The position numbers and the translations under genes are program-made. 64,000 bases of DNA from Anaerolineales bacterium (GTDB lineage: Bacteria; Chloroflexota; Anaerolineae; Anaerolineales; UBA11579): positions 699,981 to 763,980 of the forward strand of contig JAHBVB010000002.1 of assembly GCA_019637805.1 (NCBI GenBank), read 5' to 3'. Below, in pieces: positions 3,216 through 12,371 of this stretch. The notes below the pieces were generated by a model. It saw only the letters and a list, made by a program, of their open reading frames with translations, was not told the DNA's origin and made no database searches. Position 1 is the first letter of the stretch. Every line of letters starts with the position of its first letter.

Positions 3216-3857
3216 CTAGCTCTTGCGCAGCGATTGCCAGAGCAGGCAAATGCCGACGACGATAATGATCACCGGCCAAACGTAGTTCCAACTGGCTGCA
3301 CTGCCCAGGCTGACAAACAAGCCGAAAAGGATCAGAGCTCCGGCCGGGAAAATGGCCCAGCCCAAGGGCTCGCTGCTGGTGCGCAACTGGCTGATGACCA
3401 GGAAAGTCAGGCCAATGCCGATAAAGAGCAACCCGCCGGTTTCAAAGGGCAAATCCAGCCGCAGATCATCCAGTACCGAAATGATCGCCAGCGTGAACAT
3501 GACCCCGCTGGGGATCAGCGCCCACCAGTTGCTGGGTTCGCGCCGGAAGATGAACAGGAAGCCTGCTCCAATGGCGCCAAGAAAGACCGCGCCGCCCAGA
3601 GCATCGCCGATGGGCGGGAAGAATAGATCGAGGAGGTTGGAAGCCGCCAAACCCGCCAGCACCAACCCGGCGAAATTCAGCCAGGGATTGTTTTGGAGGC
3701 GCGCCTGGTCAAAGAAATACAAGGCACCCAAGGCCCACAGGCCGGCAAACAAGGCATCGTTCCAGTTGCCTTTCAGGTAACCCCATTGCTGCAGGCCGAT
3801 CAGGATGCCGCCGGCGATCAGCAGCACGCCAAAGATGGTGCGGTAGTCTCTTTGCAT
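3216..3857 (-). CDS. LiaI/LiaF-like multi-span membrane protein
   Basis: A 213-residue protein made almost entirely of short hydrophobic helices (about seven) joined by tight polar turns, beginning MQRDYRTIFGVLLIAGGILIGLQQWG. The repeated pattern 'GxLLIxxGxLxLLxxxG' resembles the LiaF/LiaI transmembrane region found in cell-envelope stress proteins. No enzymatic motif is visible. The start is fixed by an AGGAG site 5 bases before the ATG at 3857, only 7 bases after the stop of the upstream LiaF-like gene, so the two are co-transcribed and probably work together at the membrane. Confidence 0.65.
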   Translation of the reverse strand: MQRDYRTIFGVLLIAGGILIGLQQWGYLKGNWNDALFAGLWALGALYFFDQARLQNNPWLNFAGLVLAGLAASNLLDLFFPPIGDALGGAVFLGAIGAGFLFIFRREPSNWWALIPSGVMFTLAIISVLDDLRLDLPFETGGLLFIGIGLTFLVISQLRTSSEPLGWAIFPAGALILFGLFVSLGSAASWNYVWPVIIIVVGICLLWQSLRKS

Positions 3858-3864
3858 GGTTCTC

Positions 3865-4647
3865 CTATTTCACCTGTACTGAACTGAGGCCAACTTCGAT
3901 CATCAACTCCAGTGTATTGGCCGCTTTGTCATAGTCTACGGATTGGTAGGCATTCAGGTTTCGCGGAAAGCGCTGCTCATTGATCATCACTGAACCCAAG
4001 CCCGATTCGACGCTGATGCGGGCCGCTACGCCTTCCGGCACGGTGATGTCGAAATTGGCCGCCCCGCCGGAGATCTTGGCCCGCGTGTGCCCGGCCCGCT
4101 GTGGCATCACCAGGGTGGTACTGCTGGCCCCCGTCTCGATCTCAATCTCCTGAACTTGGGTATCGCGCAGGTCCAACGTGCTATCCGCCGCGCCGCATTC
4201 CAGTTTGATGATCGCAGGCGTTTTGGCATTGAGCTGTAGTTTGAGACGCTGCGCGCCATTCCAATTCCAGGGGAAGAAAGTGGTCAGGCCGTGCTCCAAG
4301 CGCACTCGCAATGTGTCGCCCTCGCGGCGAGCGGAATGCTGGACCGAGCCTGAACCGCTGAGCAGCTGCGTCCCGCTGCCGCCGCCGCTGAGGCTGAACT
4401 TGCCGGCGCCGTAGGTCAGACGCAGCTCGGCGCGCTTGGCGCCCTCGAGAGGGATTTGGATGCTATCCGCAATGCTGTTCTGGTCGTCCGGCCATTGGCG
4501 GCTGAGCAGGGTGTAGATGCCCAGTGCGATCAACACGATGGGAAAGATGAGCTGCGGCCGAATGCTGAACCAGTTGAGATTGTTGCCCAGAAAAAGAACA
4601 CCGGCCAGGATGAGCAGCGCGCCCCAAAATAGATTGTGTTTATTCAT
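3865..4647 (-). CDS. LiaF-like membrane-anchored toast-rack protein
   Basis: A 260-residue protein. Two N-terminal hydrophobic segments (residues 8-25 and 33-50) are followed by a beta-rich domain with repeating short strands (AELRLTYGAGKFSLSGG; KLECGAADSTLDLRDTQV; ISVESGLGSVMINE), typical of the DUF2154/LiaF C-terminal 'toast-rack' fold. In Firmicutes LiaF proteins repress or tune envelope-stress two-component systems; no such kinase is adjacent, so the role here is inferred only. The start is the ATG at 4647, behind a GAGGAAC ribosome site; a longer open frame running to 5130 lacks such a site and overlaps the methyltransferase gene, so it was not used. Confidence 0.7.
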   Translation of the reverse strand: MNKHNLFWGALLILAGVLFLGNNLNWFSIRPQLIFPIVLIALGIYTLLSRQWPDDQNSIADSIQIPLEGAKRAELRLTYGAGKFSLSGGGSGTQLLSGSGSVQHSARREGDTLRVRLEHGLTTFFPWNWNGAQRLKLQLNAKTPAIIKLECGAADSTLDLRDTQVQEIEIETGASSTTLVMPQRAGHTRAKISGGAANFDITVPEGVAARISVESGLGSVMINEQRFPRNLNAYQSVDYDKAANTLELMIEVGLSSVQVK

Positions 4648-4711
4648 GTTGTTCCTCAAGCTTTCATTCCCATTATACGGTTGCATGCCGCCTGCTGAAG
4701 TGTCAAATGCC

Positions 4712-5434
4712 TCAGGCAAGGCGCGCCCAGGCGAAGTAGGTAGGCACCTCCGCCGTAGGTTGGGCTTGGAGTGCGGCCAGCAGCGCGGCCAAGTCTGCTG
4801 CGGGCAGCAGCCCGGCCAGGTCCGCTTGCAGTACCTCGGCTTCCAGCGGGTTCTCCCCCGCGGCCGGATCGCTTTGCAGCCGGCCGCTTTCCGCGGGCGG
4901 CAGGCCGGCCGCGGCAAAACTGGCGGCCAGTTGCCCGCCAAAACCAGGGTCGGCTCCTTGCTGGCGCAGAGCCTGGACTTGCAACTGATTGACTGTTTGC
5001 AAGGCGCTGCTTGGCGCGGCGCGGGCAGTGTAGTCTGGCTCGGCAAAGGCCAGGACTGTCCCGCCGCGCCGCGTGATTCGGGCGGCTTCCCGCAGAGCTT
5101 GCACCGGGTCAGGCAGCCAAAGCAGCACATAATGGAAGAAGCTCAGATCGAAGCTGTTGTCCGCGTAGGGCAGGTGCAGGGCATCGCCGCAAGTCAAGTC
5201 CGCCGCGCAGACACTTCGCGCCCGTTGCAGGGCAGGGCGGTCAATATCCAAGCCGTGGATGGCTGCGCGAGTGGCGGGCAGACTGCGCAGCACGGCGCCG
5301 GGGCCGCAACCTACCTCCAGCACGCGTTGGGCATGGGCCAGCCCGGCGCGGACGAACAGGTGGCGGCGCAGCGGCTCGGTCCAGCCGGCTTGCTGCTGGT
5401 AACGGCGCTCAGCCAGGTCAGGGGACAGGGACAT
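4712..5434 (-). CDS. Class I SAM-dependent methyltransferase
   Basis: A 240-residue protein with the SAM-binding motif I VLEVGCGPGAVLRSL (near residue 37), motif II acidic residue in HGLDIDRPAL, a CGDALHLPYADNSFDL loop and the later LREAARITRRGGTVLAFAEP segment, as in Methyltransf_11/UbiE-like enzymes. The acceptor is unknown. The start was placed at the ATG at 5434 because a TATAAT box lies 7 bases upstream and no ribosome-binding site is visible, which fits a leaderless message. It is divergent from the radical SAM gene starting at 5517 and precedes the LiaF-like operon by 64 bases. Confidence 0.8.
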   Translation of the reverse strand: MSLSPDLAERRYQQQAGWTEPLRRHLFVRAGLAHAQRVLEVGCGPGAVLRSLPATRAAIHGLDIDRPALQRARSVCAADLTCGDALHLPYADNSFDLSFFHYVLLWLPDPVQALREAARITRRGGTVLAFAEPDYTARAAPSSALQTVNQLQVQALRQQGADPGFGGQLAASFAAAGLPPAESGRLQSDPAAGENPLEAEVLQADLAGLLPAADLAALLAALQAQPTAEVPTYFAWARLA

Positions 5435-5447: not shown

Positions 5448-5481
5448 GAGCTTGGCAAATTTTGCTCAGGGAAAATCGTAA

Positions 5482-5516: not shown

Positions 5517-7136
5517 ATGGCCATCGCTATTCGCCCCACATCCATGAACGCACTTTGGCAGGGCCTTCGCCAGAACTCCAGCAGTTTTCTGGCTGCCCTG
5601 CAGCCCCCTGAAACTCCCAGCCTGGGATTGCATTATTACGATATCGAAGCATCCAACGGGCGCACTTTCCGCATCCACCTGCGCGTGGAGCCCAGCGGCA
5701 ATGGCGTCCTCTTCGTGGATGTGACCGATGTGGTCCACCTGAACCAGACGGCCACCCTGATGGCCAAGATGGCCCTGGATGGCGTGCCGCGCCATGCAGC
5801 GCGGGCGCGCCTGGCCAGCTGGCGCAGCGGCGTGGCCGCTGCGCAGCTGAACAGCGAGCTCGACCAGATCTACGACATGGTCGATGGCTTCCGCCACCCG
5901 GACGGGGACTGTGCCACCTGCCGCCTGTCTGATGCGGTGTCCATGTCGCCCCTGTTCAGCATTGAGATCAATGCGCCGTACAAGGTAGACATGGCGCTGA
6001 CCTACGGCTGCAACAACGAGTGCCCGCACTGTTACAACGAGAATGACCGCCTGCAAATGCCCTCACTGCCCCTGGTGGAGTGGCAGGCCGTGCTGGACCG
6101 CCTGGCTGAGCTGGGTGTGCCGCATTTGATCCTGACCGGCGGCGAGGCCACGCTGCACCCCGACCTGCCGCAGATCATCCAGTACGCCGAGAAGCTGGGC
6201 ATGGTGGTAGGCCTCAACACCAACGGCCGTCACATCGCTCATAAGCCCTATATGGAAGAACTGGCCGAGGCCGGTTTGAACCATGTGCAGATCACGTTGG
6301 GTTCCAGCCGGGGGGAAGTGCACGATGCCATGATGGGGGCGACCTCTTTCGAGCAAACCCTGCGGGGCATCGAGAACGCGGTGGCCAGCCGCGTGCATGT
6401 CATCACCAACACCACGCTGATGCGCGCCAACATGGACCACGCCGAAGAGATCATCGAGTTCCTTTACTCGCTGGGCATCCGCACTTTTGCGATGAACGGC
6501 ATGATCTATTCCGGCGGCGGTTTTGCCCATCCGTCTGCCATCACGGAGGCGGAGATGCCTGCGTTGCTGGTGCGCGTGCGTGATAAGGCGGACGAGCTGG
6601 GCATGCGCTTCCTGTGGTACACGCCCACCGAGTATTGCCGCATGTCCCCGGTGGAACTGGAAATTGGCGCCAAGCGCTGCAATGCCGGGGAGTACTCGCT
6701 GTGCATTGAACCGAATGGCGATGTGCTGCCCTGCCAGTCGTATTACGTGTCCGCAGGCAACATCCTGCATGATCCCTGGGAACAAATTTGGGATGGGGAG
6801 CTGTTCCGCTCTTTCCGCCACCGCGAAGAAGACCCCAAGGGCTATGGCCTGCCGGAGAAGTGCTGGACCTGCCCGGACCTGCCGCTGTGCGGTGGGGGCT
6901 GCCGCATCGAGCGTGAAGCACGCGATGGCGTGCGCATCGCCGGCGAGGGCGGCGGCGGTTGCTCTGGCTGCAGCGGCAGCTGCGGCACCGGCGGGGCGGC
7001 CCACGAGATCAAGAGTCATGTACACACTGCCGGCTATATCCCGACAGGCGGCTTCATCCCTTCGCCCAGCACCACGCGCACCACGGTGCGCTCCAGCGGT
7101 AACATGTCGCTGATCGGCCTGGAGGAAATTCAATAG
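5517..7136 (+). CDS. Radical SAM/SPASM enzyme with N-terminal RRE-like (PqqD-type) domain
   Basis: A 539-residue protein. Residues ~35-120 form a PqqD/RRE-like peptide-recognition region (RIHLRVEPSGNG ... VVHLNQTA). The radical SAM core carries C165-x3-C169-x2-C172 (CNNECPHC), followed by LILTGGEAT. The C-terminal SPASM-type region holds several more cysteines (RCNAGEYSLCIEP, LPCQSYY, KCWTCPDLPLCGGGC), so one or two auxiliary Fe-S clusters are likely. A Gly-rich stretch with C482, C485 and C489 and a Thr/Ser-rich tail extend the C-terminus. RRE plus SPASM architecture is known from enzymes that modify ribosomal peptides or quinone cofactors (PqqE, anaerobic sulfatase maturases). Neighbours encode a GIKRGLT-domain membrane protein and, at 9119, a cysteine-less paralogue, pointing to a shared modification system; the substrate is not proven. 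Confidence 0.85.
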   Translation: MAIAIRPTSMNALWQGLRQNSSSFLAALQPPETPSLGLHYYDIEASNGRTFRIHLRVEPSGNGVLFVDVTDVVHLNQTATLMAKMALDGVPRHAARARLASWRSGVAAAQLNSELDQIYDMVDGFRHPDGDCATCRLSDAVSMSPLFSIEINAPYKVDMALTYGCNNECPHCYNENDRLQMPSLPLVEWQAVLDRLAELGVPHLILTGGEATLHPDLPQIIQYAEKLGMVVGLNTNGRHIAHKPYMEELAEAGLNHVQITLGSSRGEVHDAMMGATSFEQTLRGIENAVASRVHVITNTTLMRANMDHAEEIIEFLYSLGIRTFAMNGMIYSGGGFAHPSAITEAEMPALLVRVRDKADELGMRFLWYTPTEYCRMSPVELEIGAKRCNAGEYSLCIEPNGDVLPCQSYYVSAGNILHDPWEQIWDGELFRSFRHREEDPKGYGLPEKCWTCPDLPLCGGGCRIEREARDGVRIAGEGGGGCSGCSGSCGTGGAAHEIKSHVHTAGYIPTGGFIPSPSTTRTTVRSSGNMSLIGLEEIQ

Positions 7137-7161
7137 GCTATTTGTAGAAGTCTAGAAGGTC

Positions 7162-7194
7162 AAGGCTCCCGGTTATGATTGCCGGGAGCCTTTT
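7162..7194 (+). terminator. Terminator/attenuator after the radical SAM gene
   Basis: An 11-bp perfect stem (7162-7172 with 7182-7192), 9-base loop and a TTTT tail, 25 bases after the radical SAM stop codon. The next gene starts at 7211 on the same strand, so this could reduce rather than abolish read-through. Confidence 0.75.
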
Positions 7195-7210
7195 ACTTGA
7201 TGGAAGACGA

Positions 7211-8077
7211 ATGACACTTCAATACGCGATCCTGGCCGTCTGTGTTCTTTTGCTTTTGTATGTCGGCACGCGCTATTGGCACTGGCGGCAGGCCAACCTG
7301 CAGCCCTACACGCCCGCCCTGGCGCGCATCGAAGGCGGCGGGATCAAACGCGGCCTGACCCCCGCCGAAGGCGCTATCTTGCTGGGCCGTCCTCTGCATA
7401 TCACGCTCACCCTGGTCATTTTCGAGATGCTGCGCAAAGGCTTCCTGCGCCAGGTAGCTGCCGATCCACTGACGGTGGAAGTGGCCGAGGCTTTTCGCAC
7501 CCAGGGCCGCGGCCTGAGTCCACAGGCGCGCGGCGACCAACGCCGGGCGGCTGCGCAGAAGATCAACAGCACATTGCATCTCTACGAAGAACCGTTTCTG
7601 GAGATTATCGAGGCCCATCCGGGCCGCCCGGTGGCCGAGTTGGACCTGGGCGTGGCGGTGCAGCCGTTGGTGCGCTATGTGGCCGGGCGAGTGGGCGGCT
7701 ACAGCCTGGAGGAGAGCCGGGAATACTACCGCCTGATCATCGAGCGTGCCCCGCGTGAAGCGCGCAGCGACGGCCGCCTGACCTTTGAACGCCAGAAAGT
7801 GCTGGACCGCAACTTTGGCTGGGTACTGCTTGGCGACGAGTTCGCCGGTGTGCTGGATACGCCGGAGCTCAGCTACTTGCCGTTGTGGCTGCGCCCGCCG
7901 CGCGGCTCCGGCCAGGAACTGGGCGCAGTGGGCTTCGCTGCTTGGGCTCAGGGTGTGATGGATGGGTTGGCGGGTGTGGTGGCCGAGGAAGATGTCAAGC
8001 TGACCTTGGGCCGTGAAGAGGATGCCACCACCGCGACCTTGCTCAATGACATCACCCGCACCACGTTTTACGGCTGA
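7211..8077 (+). CDS. Membrane-anchored GIKRGLT-domain protein (paralogue of the DUF2207 cytoplasmic half)
   Basis: A 288-residue protein: one N-terminal membrane helix (about residues 4-20), then a cytoplasmic domain. Its opening IEGGGIKRGLTPAEGAILL matches IEGHGIKRGLTAPEAAILL of the DUF2207 protein at 10297-12021, and the two stay alignable through a helical segment (YSLEESREYYRLI versus FSKRETVDFYRKI) to GFAAWAQGVMDGLAGVV versus DFAASMVQGVQNMAGGVV. Unlike that relative it has no signal peptide, no extracellular domain and no Cys-rich tail. A GGAAGACG ribosome site supports ATG 7211. Function is unknown; co-orientation with the intact radical SAM enzyme mirrors the DUF2207/pseudo-radical-SAM pair on the other strand. 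Confidence 0.75.
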   Translation: MTLQYAILAVCVLLLLYVGTRYWHWRQANLQPYTPALARIEGGGIKRGLTPAEGAILLGRPLHITLTLVIFEMLRKGFLRQVAADPLTVEVAEAFRTQGRGLSPQARGDQRRAAAQKINSTLHLYEEPFLEIIEAHPGRPVAELDLGVAVQPLVRYVAGRVGGYSLEESREYYRLIIERAPREARSDGRLTFERQKVLDRNFGWVLLGDEFAGVLDTPELSYLPLWLRPPRGSGQELGAVGFAAWAQGVMDGLAGVVAEEDVKLTLGREEDATTATLLNDITRTTFYG

Positions 8078-8122
8078 TTAATCTCTATTATCATTGTACG
8101 AGCTTGTGTCTGAGGAGCCCTG

Positions 8123-9043
8123 ATGTCTAATTTCCCTACGCTCTACAACAGTGAAGATGCCTTCCGCGACTATGTCCCGCGCACCCAGGAGTTTATGACG
8201 CTGGGAGCCCAAGCCGGCCTACGGCCCGCAGCCGAAGACAAGGCCCGCGCGGCGCTAGTGGTGATCGATATGCAGAACGACTTTGTGCGCCCGGAGGGCG
8301 CACTCAGCGTGCCCGGCTCCGAGGCCGATCTGCAGCGCCTCGTCGAATTCATTTACAACAAAGCCGAGCAGATCAGTGCTATCTACTGCACGCTGGATTC
8401 GCACTATCCGATGCAGATCTTCTACAGCGAGTGGTGGCACAACCCGGCTACTGGCGAGCAGCCGGCACCTTTCACCGTCATCACCGCCGAAGATCTGGCC
8501 CAGGGTGCATGGGTCGCCCGGCAGGATGCGGAGTGGTCGCAGCACTACGTCACCGAACTGGCCAAGCAGAGCCAGAAACAGCTCATGATCTGGCCCAAGC
8601 ACACCATGGTGGGCACCTGGGGCCAGGCCCTCTCGCCAGCGCTGTACGAGGCGATTGCCTGGCACAGCGCCGCCCGGCAGGCCCAGCCGGTCTTCGTGAC
8701 CAAGGGCGACCTGCCGCAGGTGGAGCGCTACGGGGCGTTTGCGCCAGAGGTGGAATATCCCGGCGACCCGCGCGGCCGGGCCGACCGGACCTTGCTGGAC
8801 GAACTCGCCGGTTACGAGCGCACCTGGTGGGCGGGTGAGGCCGAGACACACTGCGTGATTGCCAGCCAGGTACAGGCGGCGGAGTACTATGCCAGTAAGC
8901 CCCAGGTGCTGGAAGGCATGAACTTCCTAACCGACTGCACCAGCCCTATCCTGCACCCTGAGGTTGACTTCGTCGGCCCGACACGCGCCGAGCAGCAGCG
9001 ACTGGCTGCGCTCGGTGTGAAGCTGGTGAAGAGCACGGATTAG
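8123..9043 (+). CDS. Cysteine hydrolase, isochorismatase/nicotinamidase family
   Basis: A 306-residue protein with the isochorismatase-like fold: ALVVIDMQNDF supplies the catalytic Asp and metal-side residues, IWPKHTMVGT the Lys, and GEAETHCVIASQ the nucleophilic Cys, so the Asp-Lys-Cys triad is complete. Nicotinamidases and related amidohydrolases usually have 180-220 residues. This longer form has an N-terminal extension and extra loops, as seen in the larger nicotinamidase-like subfamily, so nicotinamide is possible but not certain. A GAGGAG ribosome site precedes the ATG, with TATTAT at 8086-8091 as a probable -10 box. The gene ends at a bidirectional terminator shared with the facing operon. 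Confidence 0.8.
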   Translation: MSNFPTLYNSEDAFRDYVPRTQEFMTLGAQAGLRPAAEDKARAALVVIDMQNDFVRPEGALSVPGSEADLQRLVEFIYNKAEQISAIYCTLDSHYPMQIFYSEWWHNPATGEQPAPFTVITAEDLAQGAWVARQDAEWSQHYVTELAKQSQKQLMIWPKHTMVGTWGQALSPALYEAIAWHSAARQAQPVFVTKGDLPQVERYGAFAPEVEYPGDPRGRADRTLLDELAGYERTWWAGEAETHCVIASQVQAAEYYASKPQVLEGMNFLTDCTSPILHPEVDFVGPTRAEQQRLAALGVKLVKSTD

Positions 9044-9051
9044 CTATAGAT

Positions 9052-9087
9052 AAAAAAGAGGCCGGTCTTTTGACCGGCCTCTTTTTT
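9052..9087. terminator. Bidirectional Rho-independent terminator
   Basis: A 16-bp perfect inverted repeat (9052-9067 with 9072-9087) with A6 on one side and T6 on the other, between the convergent hydrolase and pseudo-radical-SAM genes. It can serve both strands. Confidence 0.9.
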
Positions 9088-9118
9088 GTCTATGCAATCT
9101 ACAAGCTGATGATAGGGG

Positions 9119-10297
9119 CTATGCCTTAACCTTCCAGATCTTGCTCCACTTGTCATTCAGCATATTGCCCAAAACTTTTTTGCCGCCCTGTCCTGCCAGC
9201 ACGTCGCCATCCGGCTCGACGTACAGCCAGGCGCGGCCGGCCCCGTCGAGCGCTTTGGTTTTCTGGGCTTTGAGCTCCAGGCTCACCGGGTTTAAGCCTG
9301 AGTAAGGCACCGGCATGTCCCAGACCAGCGGCAAGCCCATATGATTGGCGTGGTCGGCGGCGGTTTGCAGCTTGTCGCTGAGCGTTTCGTCACTCTCGCT
9401 CAACGAAAGGGCGCGCACGCCGCTCTCGGCGATACGGTCGATCAGGCTATTGATCTGCTTGGCGTTCTGCTTGGTCAGCGTCAGGTGGGCGGCGATGAAG
9501 ATGTCATCATCCAGCACCTTGCGCCAGTAGGCAAAACTGGCCAGTGATTCCCAGGTTTCCTCTTTGCTGGGCTGCAGCACGATCATGGCGTGGTCCAGGC
9601 CTGCATCTAATAGGGTCTTCAGGTAACGCGTATCGCCCAGCTTGCGGCCGTCGGTGATCAGGCCGCTCACCAAGCCGTGCTCTTCGGCGCGCTGCAGCAG
9701 TTGCGGCAGATCCTCACGCAGGGTGGGTTCGCCGCCGGTGAACAGCACATGCGGGATGCCGATTTCGTAGGCCCTGTCGATGATCTGCGTCCACTCTTCG
9801 GTGCTGAGCTCGCGGGTCACGCGCTTGGTGGGCGCCGCATCGCGCGGGGCTCCGGCGGGCAGCTTGTAAGTCAGCGCGCAATCCAGCCGATAGGGCGCGG
9901 TCATCGAGTCGGTATAGGGCGCCTGGCGTTCCAGGTTCAGGTAGGTCACCGGGTCCAGGTCGGGCGTCTCGATCAATGTTTGCAGGCTTTGCGCAAAGTT
10001 GGCGTAATCGGTGGTTGCCTGTTTTTTGCTGACCCGGTAGCGTTGGCTGATTTTGGCGGCAACTTCATCCGGAGGGGTTAGATGGATGAAGTGATACGCA
10101 TATTCTGCGGCGGACTGGTTGAGGTGCATCACCGTCGAGGCATTCAATACCAGCAGTCCCTGGCCGTTCGGCTCCACGCGCAGATGCAAGCGGTAGTGGA
10201 AGGGATGGCTGGCCGGCGCCGTGTAAGTATAAAAGCCCGGCTCCAGGGGAGCGGCGCGCTCAGTGTCGTTCAAGCCCAGGCGTTCTCGCCAGCCCAT
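9119..10297 (-). CDS. Degenerate radical SAM paralogue lacking all cluster cysteines
   Basis: A 392-residue protein homologous along its length to the radical SAM enzyme at 5517: the RRE-like region keeps RLHLRVEPNGQG and MHLNQSA, the barrel keeps HVLFTGGEPTLREDLPQLL, and the C-terminal part keeps YVEPDGDVL and LGNMLNDKWSKIW. The CxxxCxxC loop is replaced by an equally placed KLPAGAPRDAAPTK stretch, and the SPASM cysteines are gone: only one Cys remains in the whole protein. It cannot bind a [4Fe-4S] cluster in the usual way, so it is probably a pseudoenzyme, perhaps a substrate-binding or scaffold partner. The ATG at 10297 overlaps the stop of the DUF2207 gene by one base (TGATG), behind GGAGGAG, so the two are translationally coupled. 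The frame is intact, arguing against a pseudogene. Confidence 0.85.
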   Translation of the reverse strand: MGWRERLGLNDTERAAPLEPGFYTYTAPASHPFHYRLHLRVEPNGQGLLVLNASTVMHLNQSAAEYAYHFIHLTPPDEVAAKISQRYRVSKKQATTDYANFAQSLQTLIETPDLDPVTYLNLERQAPYTDSMTAPYRLDCALTYKLPAGAPRDAAPTKRVTRELSTEEWTQIIDRAYEIGIPHVLFTGGEPTLREDLPQLLQRAEEHGLVSGLITDGRKLGDTRYLKTLLDAGLDHAMIVLQPSKEETWESLASFAYWRKVLDDDIFIAAHLTLTKQNAKQINSLIDRIAESGVRALSLSESDETLSDKLQTAADHANHMGLPLVWDMPVPYSGLNPVSLELKAQKTKALDGAGRAWLYVEPDGDVLAGQGGKKVLGNMLNDKWSKIWKVKA

Positions 10298-12021
10298 CAG
10301 CGGCCTCCTCCAGCGCAAGCGCAGGCGCAGCCGGCACAAGCGCAGGCGCAGGAACTGCCACCCCCGCTGAAGCCGCCGCCGCTGCTGCTGGTGCGGCTGG
10401 GCGGGGGCGGCGGGTTGGTCACTTTGGTTACGCCGCCGGTAAAGTCGCTCAGGTTGCCCACCACGCCGCCGGCCATGTTCTGCACGCCCTGCACCATGGA
10501 GGCAGCGAAATCCGCCCCCGGCAGGGTGGGCAGCGAAACACCGCCGCCCGTGCTCTTGGTTGGCGCACCGGGGCCGCTGCGGCCCCCGCCGCCCGCGCCG
10601 GCCGTGCGGAAGGTGGGGTCATAGCTGCCCCACCAGCGCGGCACATACACGGAACGCCCGCCACCGCCGAAGACGTCTTGCGTGCGGCGGTTGTAATCCT
10701 TGTCCATCATGGTCCATTCCAGGTTCTCTTCGTACAGTTGGCTCTGGACCTTGGGTGTGTCGGCTGCCTCCACTTGCTTCCAGGCATCCTCAGAAATCTT
10801 GCGATAGAAGTCGACGGTCTCACGCTTGCTGAAGCCGCGCATCTTGGTGGCCACGCCCTTGACCAGGCGCACCATCATGTCTTGCAGTTCTTTGCGGCGC
10901 TTGGTCTTGTTGCTCTGGGCGAAGGCGCCCAGGAATTCCATCTCGTAATCGCGCAGGCCGGCCTCGGCGGGCAGCGGCGAGGCCACTTTGAGTTCCAGTG
11001 GATCACGTTTCTCCACCTCGGCCGCGCCCTTTTTGATCGCCGAGAACAGCATCATGGTCAAGATCTTGTCCATGGGCTGTTCCAGCAGAATAGCCGCTTC
11101 TGGGGCGGTTAGGCCGCGCTTGATGCCGTGGCCTTCAATCGAGATCTTGGGTGGCAGGTATTGCATGCGGCGCCGGCGGTCTGCCGCCACTGCCACCCAG
11201 ATAATGATGCCCATGATCAGGCCGAAGCAGCAGCACACCAGCATGGTGATGACGAAGTCCGGGTCCAGGCCCAGGCGCTGCCAGATGTTGGGTTGCTGGA
11301 TGGTGCTGGCGGGCACGTAGTGAGTGGGAAAAGACGCGCCGAAGATGTACTCACGCGAGGGACTGGCGCTGGGGTTGCGCCAGGTATAGGTGATGCGGCC
11401 CTGGTTATCCCGGCCGGTTACCGGCTCGTCCGGGAACCCCACGTGGCCTTCGGTGTGCCAGCGCGGCTCAGCCGGCTGCACACCGGGGGGCAGGTGGAAG
11501 ATGACGGTCAGGTCTGTCGTGCCGTAGGTGAATTCACTGCCGAAGTAATTCGGCATAAACAAAGCGCTGGCGTAATCGTCGTCCAGGTTGTCGGTATACA
11601 GTACCTGGCGGATGCCGGTCACGCGGGCGCGGAAAGTGCCGCTGCCGCCGGCCGGGATGGGATTGCTAAAGTAGATGGCGGGGCCGGCATCAATGTAAGG
11701 AGATTGCGCCTCGATGCGTGATGCCGCCTGGCCGTTCATGGATGCCGTGATGTTGCCGGCAGAATATTGCCGGTTGGGCAGGCCCAGGTCCACCACGTCG
11801 ATGGGATGCGCCCCTGTGCCGTTTTGGAAAACAACTTCATAGTCAACCGTGACGGTGCCGTCGCTCTCCCAGTACACATCCACCCAGGCGCGTGGCACAG
11901 CGAAATAATAGTCCTGGGCCGAGACACTGAACGGCATGGCCAGCATGACCAGCAGGCCGAGCAGCAGCAGGGCAGAACGCCAGGACGGCTTGCGCAGGTT
12001 CTGCAAAAACTGTCTTACCAT
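10297..12021 (-). CDS. DUF2207-type membrane protein with Cys-Ala-rich cytoplasmic tail
   Basis: A 574-residue protein: signal peptide (residues 1-30), an extracytoplasmic beta-rich domain (to about 260), a membrane helix containing CCCFGLIMGIIIWVAVA, then a cytoplasmic domain starting GIKRGLT that matches the protein at 7211. A Gly/Pro-rich linker ends in a striking tail whose last 19 residues hold six cysteines at 558, 560, 562, 565, 567 and 569, alternating with alanine (CACACAGCACACA), closed by GGGR. The tail should lie in the cytoplasm, within reach of a modifying enzyme. The start overlaps the upstream zinc-ribbon gene by 7 bases and the stop overlaps the pseudo-radical-SAM start, so the three form one coupled operon. 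DUF2207 function is unknown; a metal-binding or modified-peptide role is inferred. Confidence 0.85.
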   Translation of the reverse strand: MVRQFLQNLRKPSWRSALLLLGLLVMLAMPFSVSAQDYYFAVPRAWVDVYWESDGTVTVDYEVVFQNGTGAHPIDVVDLGLPNRQYSAGNITASMNGQAASRIEAQSPYIDAGPAIYFSNPIPAGGSGTFRARVTGIRQVLYTDNLDDDYASALFMPNYFGSEFTYGTTDLTVIFHLPPGVQPAEPRWHTEGHVGFPDEPVTGRDNQGRITYTWRNPSASPSREYIFGASFPTHYVPASTIQQPNIWQRLGLDPDFVITMLVCCCFGLIMGIIIWVAVAADRRRRMQYLPPKISIEGHGIKRGLTAPEAAILLEQPMDKILTMMLFSAIKKGAAEVEKRDPLELKVASPLPAEAGLRDYEMEFLGAFAQSNKTKRRKELQDMMVRLVKGVATKMRGFSKRETVDFYRKISEDAWKQVEAADTPKVQSQLYEENLEWTMMDKDYNRRTQDVFGGGGRSVYVPRWWGSYDPTFRTAGAGGGGRSGPGAPTKSTGGGVSLPTLPGADFAASMVQGVQNMAGGVVGNLSDFTGGVTKVTNPPPPPSRTSSSGGGFSGGGSSCACACAGCACACAGGGR

Positions 12022-12371
12022 TTGGGTTTCTCTTCGACTTGATAGACAGCCCCACAATAGGGGCATTCGACGTTGAGCGCGCCGCCCACCAGGCGCACGT
12101 TTTCACTGCTCAGCGCGCCGCCGCACTGGCGGCACTGGAAGTTCTCCAGATTGACATCGCCGGTGAGCTCTACCTGATAGGTTACCTTGTGTTCTTGGGC
12201 AGCGGGTTCTTTGCGGTTCACGTACCAAATGATGCCCAAACCAATTGCGGTGCTGATGGCGCCAACTGCGATCCAACCAATGCCGCCGCCTTGATCACTG
12301 AACGCACCCCATATAAATAGCACGCCAAAAAAGACCAAAATGGCGGCGAAAATATTGCCAGCTGTCTTCAT
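12015..12371 (-). CDS. Small membrane protein with C-terminal zinc ribbon
   Basis: A 118-residue protein with two membrane helices (about residues 6-24 and 30-50) and a cytoplasmic C-terminal rubredoxin-like zinc ribbon: FQCRQCGGAL and ECPYCGAVY give two CxxC knuckles. No homologous function is recognised. The ATG at 12371 follows an AAGGAG site. The stop codon overlaps the DUF2207 start by 7 bases, so the protein is made together with the Cys-tail protein and the pseudo-radical-SAM protein. It may chaperone metal or assist assembly of that membrane complex, which is speculation. Confidence 0.75.
   Translation of the reverse strand: MKTAGNIFAAILVFFGVLFIWGAFSDQGGGIGWIAVGAISTAIGLGIIWYVNRKEPAAQEHKVTYQVELTGDVNLENFQCRQCGGALSSENVRLVGGALNVECPYCGAVYQVEEKPKW

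Follow-up and report, generated by a model that had tools for sequence, protein, structure and literature searches.

A locus was analysed in a window of 64,000 nt (contig JAHBVB010000002.1, positions 699,981 to 763,980) from the 2.34 Mb genome of an Anaerolineales bacterium, whose closest relatives by locus match were metagenome-assembled genomes (MAGs) of Anaerolineales (Chloroflexota). With a probability estimated at about 0.7, this locus encodes a system that modifies the Cys-Ala tail at the C-terminus of a membrane-integral protein by an enzyme joining a RiPP recognition element (RRE; RiPP, ribosomally synthesized and post-translationally modified peptide) to a radical S-adenosylmethionine (SAM) and a SPASM domain. 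Four proteins, named here P0001 (5517-7136), P0002 (7211-8077), P0003 (9119-10297) and P0004 (10297-12021), had been claimed in an initial annotation of the window, and all four open reading frames (ORFs) were recovered at these coordinates. Moreover, the unit extends past them, as a methyltransferase gene (4712-5434) and a gene for a small zinc-ribbon protein (ZR, 12051-12371) were conserved as well. The features of the locus are as follows:

4712-5434, minus strand: class I SAM-dependent methyltransferase (Methyltransf_11, Pfam E 9.9e-22), divergent from the radical SAM gene
5517-7136, plus strand: active RRE-radical SAM-SPASM maturase of type B, by Pfam, motif and tree; nearest solved proteins SkfB and PqqE
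7211-8077, plus strand: small membrane protein with the GIKRGLT cytosolic domain only; by tree, a DUF_B paralogue that lacks both ectodomain and Cys tail
9119-10297, minus strand: pseudo-radical-SAM protein (dead twin), with RRE and barrel retained, cluster cysteines and second SPASM half gone
10297-12021, minus strand: DUF2207-like tail protein with signal peptide, ectodomain (36-235), transmembrane segment (~256-281), GIKRGLT domain (~296-450), linker and Cys-Ala tail
10300-10350, minus strand: conserved C-terminal tail CACACAGCACACAGGGR, the proposed substrate (residues 558-574; position from residue numbering)
12051-12371, minus strand: ZR, small membrane protein with two N-terminal transmembrane segments and a C-terminal zinc ribbon (CRQCG...CPYCGAVYQVEEKPKW), by sequence and recurrence

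The Cys-Ala tail and the accompanying enzyme

The Cys-rich tail noticed earlier on the protein of 10297-12021 was confirmed, the protein terminating in ...GGGSSCACACAGCACACAGGGR / SCACACAGCACACAGGGR, and the last ~17-21 residues took the form (CA)n-G-(CA)3-4-GGGR. A DNA pattern for CACAGCACACA was run over 85,000 species genomes and returned at least 119 stretches, 80 of which were used as loci. Among the matches listed, the bacterial hosts belonged to Chloroflexota, Armatimonadota, Pirellulales (Planctomycetes), Fermentibacterota, Aminicenantes, Zixibacteria, Coatesbacteria and Acidobacteriota, and the Asgard hosts to Hodarchaeota, Heimdallarchaeota, Lokiarchaeota and Sigynarchaeota. With the class genomes and the window added to these matches, 98 of the 99 copies with a readable C-terminus ended exactly in GGGR, the only exception among the matches listed being Hungatella, where the tail runs on for about twenty residues.

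The tail pattern occurred once in each of 28 of the 400 phylum genomes, while the reversed control gave no match, which is far beyond chance. Furthermore, 133 distinct encodings were counted in 173 loci (some of which overlap) and, since so many DNA strings encode an invariant tail, selection acts on the tail peptide. Among 42 diverse tail proteins 28 columns were invariant, 17 of them within the last 21 residues (gap-free count of listed columns), and this invariance covered Ala, Gly and the terminal Arg besides Cys. Such near-letter conservation from Chloroflexota to Asgard archaea, in the consistent company of a single radical SAM family, strongly indicates that a defined chemical product is made.

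Regarding individual matches, the tail in Hungatella hathewayi (L229, 1539-4063) is followed by AGCSQKDFYNSIHVPKEIPKI, the membrane protein is shorter and a related radical SAM enzyme adjoins; the first impression of a chance match was dropped because of this adjoining enzyme. Among 150 genomes from the family of Hungatella, this tail was present in one. On the other hand, a 1139-aa kinase/ATPase protein bearing the tail (L100) was not taken to show that the tail is modular, as it resembles a contig chimera with the C-terminus of a tail protein.

Members of the unit were found by searching 199 genomes of the class and then clustering every ORF around the matches; the conserved neighbourhood and the co-occurrence in related genomes, which the initial annotation had proposed as a check, were both found. 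The tail protein was strongly matched in 22 class genomes, every one of which also had a strong match to the enzyme family, as did 5 of the 177 others (Fisher p 8e-25, a value that overstates independence because the genomes are related). Of 100 tail-gene copies among the matches listed, 72 had a radical SAM gene with the CxxxCxxC motif next to them despite contig ends, which truncate many of the MAG loci. Twelve tail genomes without a complete neighbouring enzyme were searched whole, and in all 12 a relative of the enzyme lay elsewhere or on another piece, with identities of 54% in Lokiarchaeota and 53% in Sigynarchaeota; two of them (L178 and L137) gave only partial or twin-like matches on short contigs. 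The composition of the unit, its conservation and its linkage are thereby established from sequence.

A sister system was present in more distant members of the class (L073-L086), in which a DUF2207-like protein terminates in (CHSACHSACHSACVHDACHSAC...)n, a tail of (CHSAC)n type that was almost letter-perfect in 11 genomes. Its genes are ordered as tail protein, related radical SAM enzyme, coiled-coil protein and another membrane/zinc-ribbon protein. The profile comparison of the CHSAC protein family with the tail-protein family of the window gave a probability of 99.9%, so the enzyme family occurs with Cys-repeat tails of two kinds, both carried by membrane proteins that are homologous. No description of this sister system was found in the open-access literature.

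The enzyme at 5517-7136, previously described as an intact RRE-radical SAM-SPASM protein, was borne out by Pfam, motif and alignment, although indirectly for the RRE. P0001 matched Radical_SAM (E 1.3e-27) and SPASM (PF13186, E 1.4e-12) and carries TYGCNNECPHC, which holds the CxxxCxxC motif seen in all active clades. Its N-terminus gave no direct hit to PqqD (PF05402) but aligns to homologues matching this family, and PqqD matches were obtained for the twin and for the enzyme of the CHSAC system. SkfB was the best solved match by sequence, and sactipeptide maturases of the SkfB, AlbA and StsB type ranked among the best family matches. The C-terminal extension of P0001, GGGCSGCSGSCGTGG, was conserved in two loci of the same hybrid layout (L125 and L136) and loose or absent in other type-B enzymes.

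The tail protein, the cysteine-less twin and the hybrid locus

P0004 has 574 aa, its relatives having 500-700 aa, and its AlphaFold model comprised a confident ectodomain, one transmembrane segment, a cytosolic domain with a winged-helix-like and a helical part, and a tail without order. As an RRRR cluster directly follows the transmembrane segment, the C-terminus is predicted to be cytoplasmic by the positive-inside rule, and the cytoplasmic side suggested earlier for the tail agrees with this topology. The GIKRGLT domain shared by 7211-8077 (plus strand) and 10297-12021 (minus strand) was also confirmed. P0004 had no matches in NCBIfam or Pfam models. Its earlier label, DUF2207, held as remote homology (hhalign 99.1% over 478 columns against a Pfam-confirmed DUF2207 set, a single-comparison value and not a database E-value) and did not hold as a Pfam call, for which there was no hit at E<=10. 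DUF2207 proteins (PF09972/PF20990) have the same order of signal peptide, ectodomain, transmembrane segment, cytosolic domain and Gly-rich tail; however, the ordinary members compared finish in poly-Gly without Cys, where the P0004 family has the Cys-Ala tail. The best fold for the ectodomain (36-235) was ribophorin I/OST1 (6ezn_A; Z 17.1, rmsd 2.9, 185 aligned), followed by M1 aminopeptidase N-domains (Z ~12). The identity to OST1 was 11-15%; the Pfam family of ribophorin I gave no match to P0004 at E<=10, and the tail-protein profile found no relative among PDB sequences. OST1 has been reported in Asgard archaea (PMC11417166). Tail proteins of the P0004 family also occur in Asgard archaea.

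The protein at 9119-10297, presented in the initial annotation as a radical SAM paralogue without cluster cysteines, matched Radical_SAM (E 1.9e-10) and PqqD (E 4.2e-5); P0003 has no CxxxCxxC motif, and its SPASM domain is truncated, with the second half missing. The predicted structure (mean pLDDT 82) had SkfB as best match over the full length (TM-score 0.62), then PqqE and then SuiB with its precursor peptide, and the epimerase EpeE was among the fold neighbours. The pseudo-SAM equivalog TIGR04347, a pseudo-SAM/SPASM family likewise filed as a catalytically degenerate radical SAM relative, scored far under its cut-off (61.8 vs. 525 bits).

To place these genes, a tree of 134 enzymes and twins and a second tree from cytosolic domains were built. 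P0001 sits in clade rSAM_B (13 rows; support 97, starred), while P0003 sits in a 34-member clade of dead twins (96, starred) that groups with type-A enzymes from the same class. P0002 nests within DUF_B, the type-B tail proteins partnering rSAM_B (17 rows; 95, starred); in the cytosolic-domain tree, one of the three small-GIKRGLT rows lies on a long branch. On these placements P0001 and P0002 are of the type B lineage and P0003 and P0004 of type A/I, and the window is a hybrid locus; P0002 is by sequence a DUF_B remnant, without tail and ectodomain, beside a type-I tail protein with a type-A-derived twin. The layout was identical in L125 and L136. This twin usually comes with a type-A2 enzyme, for which the genome of the window gave no match. 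Elsewhere, type-B systems have a dead twin of their own, twinC (10 rows), which is distinct from the P0003 clade, so cysteine-less twins occur in at least two separate clades. Compared with L125 (4322-5194), the N-terminal transmembrane segment of P0002 is wholly different and the remainder nearly identical. Two type-B loci (L106 and L107) have two tail proteins in tandem.

A different origin had been proposed initially, namely a local duplication of one pair of radical SAM enzyme and GIKRGLT protein, with one copy turned into a scaffold. The presence of a radical SAM relative and of the GIKRGLT domain in both halves fits this origin, but the active enzyme and the twin are in different starred clades, P0002 nests in DUF_B and not with the tail protein of the window, and related genomes contain twins of the P0003 clade alongside active enzymes of type A2. 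Both trees therefore contradict the proposal: as the enzyme with P0002 and the twin with the tail protein belong to different lineages, no local duplication took place here, and such an event can be given hardly any credence. Similarly, the twin might be taken for a pseudogene in decay and not for a functional subunit, given that every cluster cysteine is gone and SPASM is truncated. This is most improbable, as all 34 members of its clade, each without CxxxCxxC, have long intact frames in 34 genomes, the mean column identity was 54% in an alignment of 25 members (with the GGE motif and parts of the RRE invariant), dN/dS (nonsynonymous to synonymous rates) was 0.04-0.20 in close pairs, and the separate clade twinC of type-B systems (10 of 10 without CxxxCxxC) is a second case. 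Judged from its lineage, cysteine loss and selection, all read from sequence, the twin is a pseudo-maturase that purifying selection has conserved, and in the simplest reading it is probably a substrate-binding or presenting subunit.

As for gene layout, the usual order elsewhere was ZR, tail protein, RRE/radical SAM/SPASM enzyme, dead twin (where present) and methyltransferase. In the window, the stop of P0004 overlaps the start of P0003 (TGATG), coupling the tail protein and twin genes, and the ZR gene lies 29 bp upstream of the tail protein gene; proteins of the ZR family terminate in CPYCGxxYQxxEEPKW. The methyltransferase ORF has a further possible start (TTG at 5458), its nearest NCBIfam model was the DVU_1556 family methyltransferase, under cut-off, and its gene recurs next to tail and radical SAM genes elsewhere. 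An isochorismatase-like gene (8123-9043) was rejected as a member of the unit because, although present in the near relative L125, it was not in L136. Genes for LiaF/DUF5668-like membrane proteins (3216-5130, minus strand) lie upstream of the methyltransferase, outside the conserved unit. A promoter and terminator scan gave matches at chance level only.

Proposed modification and its alternatives

The conserved neighbourhood and the co-occurrence support the earlier suggestion of a modification system, for which the Cys tail is the likely substrate. We infer the following course as to topology, substrate identity, chemistry, final function and what the twin, the adaptor, the methyltransferase and ZR each do. 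The tail protein would be inserted with its ectodomain outside and the GIKRGLT domain and tail in the cytoplasm, where the RRE-radical SAM-SPASM enzyme would dock on it, probably via the cytosolic domain, and oxidise the tail. The most likely products would be thioether links from Cys sulphur to Ala or Gly carbons across a (CA)n-G-(CA)n hairpin, a natural guess because the tail consists only of Cys, Ala, Gly and Arg. The catalytically dead twin probably binds and presents the substrate. P0002, the GIKRGLT protein without a tail, would probably act as an adaptor for the type-B enzyme, since the usual DUF_B partner of this enzyme is absent, and the methyltransferase may target the tail or the Arg at its end. 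The tail, once finished, would remain part of the protein and form a rigid, metal- or redox-active element at the inner face of the membrane.

Several observations weigh against this scheme. The putative substrate is a membrane protein of 500-700 aa and not a short leader-core peptide; the type-B enzyme is not the usual partner of a type-I tail, so that activity of P0001 on this tail is assumed; and many tail systems have no dead twin (Asgard, Fermentibacterota and several Chloroflexota families), which makes the twin accessory. A Cys-rich tail could, moreover, bind metal without any modification. In that case the tail would be metallothionein-like and the enzyme would act on another cell component or cofactor; the CxC repeats and the (CHSAC)n motifs may act as ligands of Zn, Cu or Fe, and ZR is likewise a predicted metal binder. 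Nevertheless, tail and enzyme co-occurred without exception in the genomes checked, even when unlinked, the enzyme family pairs with two unrelated types of Cys tail, and residues other than Cys are invariant too, all of which make an unmodified tail unlikely. A somewhat better, though still minor, chance is given to the enzyme altering another residue of the tail protein or forming a different bond (epimerisation, C-C link or oxidation), with the tail as cofactor or scaffold. RRE-SPASM chemistries do vary, as PqqE forms C-C bonds and an epimerase stands among the fold neighbours, but the invariant stretch is Cys-rich and the best family matches include sactipeptide maturases. Among these mechanisms, action of the RRE-SPASM enzyme on the tail has the best support.

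Relation to known systems and significance

The locus resembles those of the sactipeptide maturases (RumMC1/2, AlbA, SkfB and StsB) in the combination of RRE, CxxxCxxC radical SAM and SPASM domains and in the Cys-containing substrate, here a candidate, encoded alongside; SkfB was the best solved match to P0001 by sequence and to the pseudo-twin by fold. It differs in the candidate substrate, a large protein integral to the membrane whose C-terminal tail is apparently not cleaved off, in the occurrence in Asgard archaea and in the presence of a methyltransferase, a zinc-ribbon protein and a dead twin. RumMC1/2 are RRE-SPASM enzymes that install thioether bridges in Cys-rich RumC peptides (PMC8188230); they need the RRE for substrate engagement, and an RRE supplied in trans partly rescues it (PMC8188230), and this sets a precedent for the dead twin as a separate binding subunit.

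The nearest concept found in the literature was that of TIGR04222 membrane proteins with Cys-rich tails near MNIO (multinuclear non-heme iron-dependent oxidative) enzymes (PMC12452194). Both cases have a membrane protein, a Cys-rich C-terminal tail rich in Gly/Ser and a neighbouring candidate tail-modifying enzyme; however, this enzyme is an MNIO there and a radical SAM protein here, and the TIGR04222 tails are predicted to be periplasmic, whereas the present tail is predicted to be cytoplasmic. The TIGR04222 model gave no NCBIfam match to P0004, and MNIO (PF05114) was not found in the genome of the window, which is 95% complete. No paper describing the present system was found in the open-access literature, and nothing relevant turned up there on DUF2207 proteins together with radical SAM enzymes, on SPASM enzymes and RiPP tails of Chloroflexi or on SPASM RiPPs of Asgard archaea; this is weak evidence of absence because only open-access papers were covered.

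Taken together, the results suggest an apparently undescribed tail-enzyme system and an ancient chemical modification of the cytoplasmic end of a membrane protein. A fuller proposal, to which even odds are given, is that of an ancient system crossing Bacteria and Asgard archaea, in which a RiPP-type maturase, often with a dead twin, cross-links the permanent cytoplasmic tail of a ribophorin-like protein, the product being a structural or a metal/redox part of the membrane and no secreted peptide. If this is true, RiPP-type chemistry would shift from small natural products to the permanent tail of a membrane protein, the dead radical SAM twins of at least two lineages would gain a testable role, and a function would be named for an unannotated DUF2207-like family.

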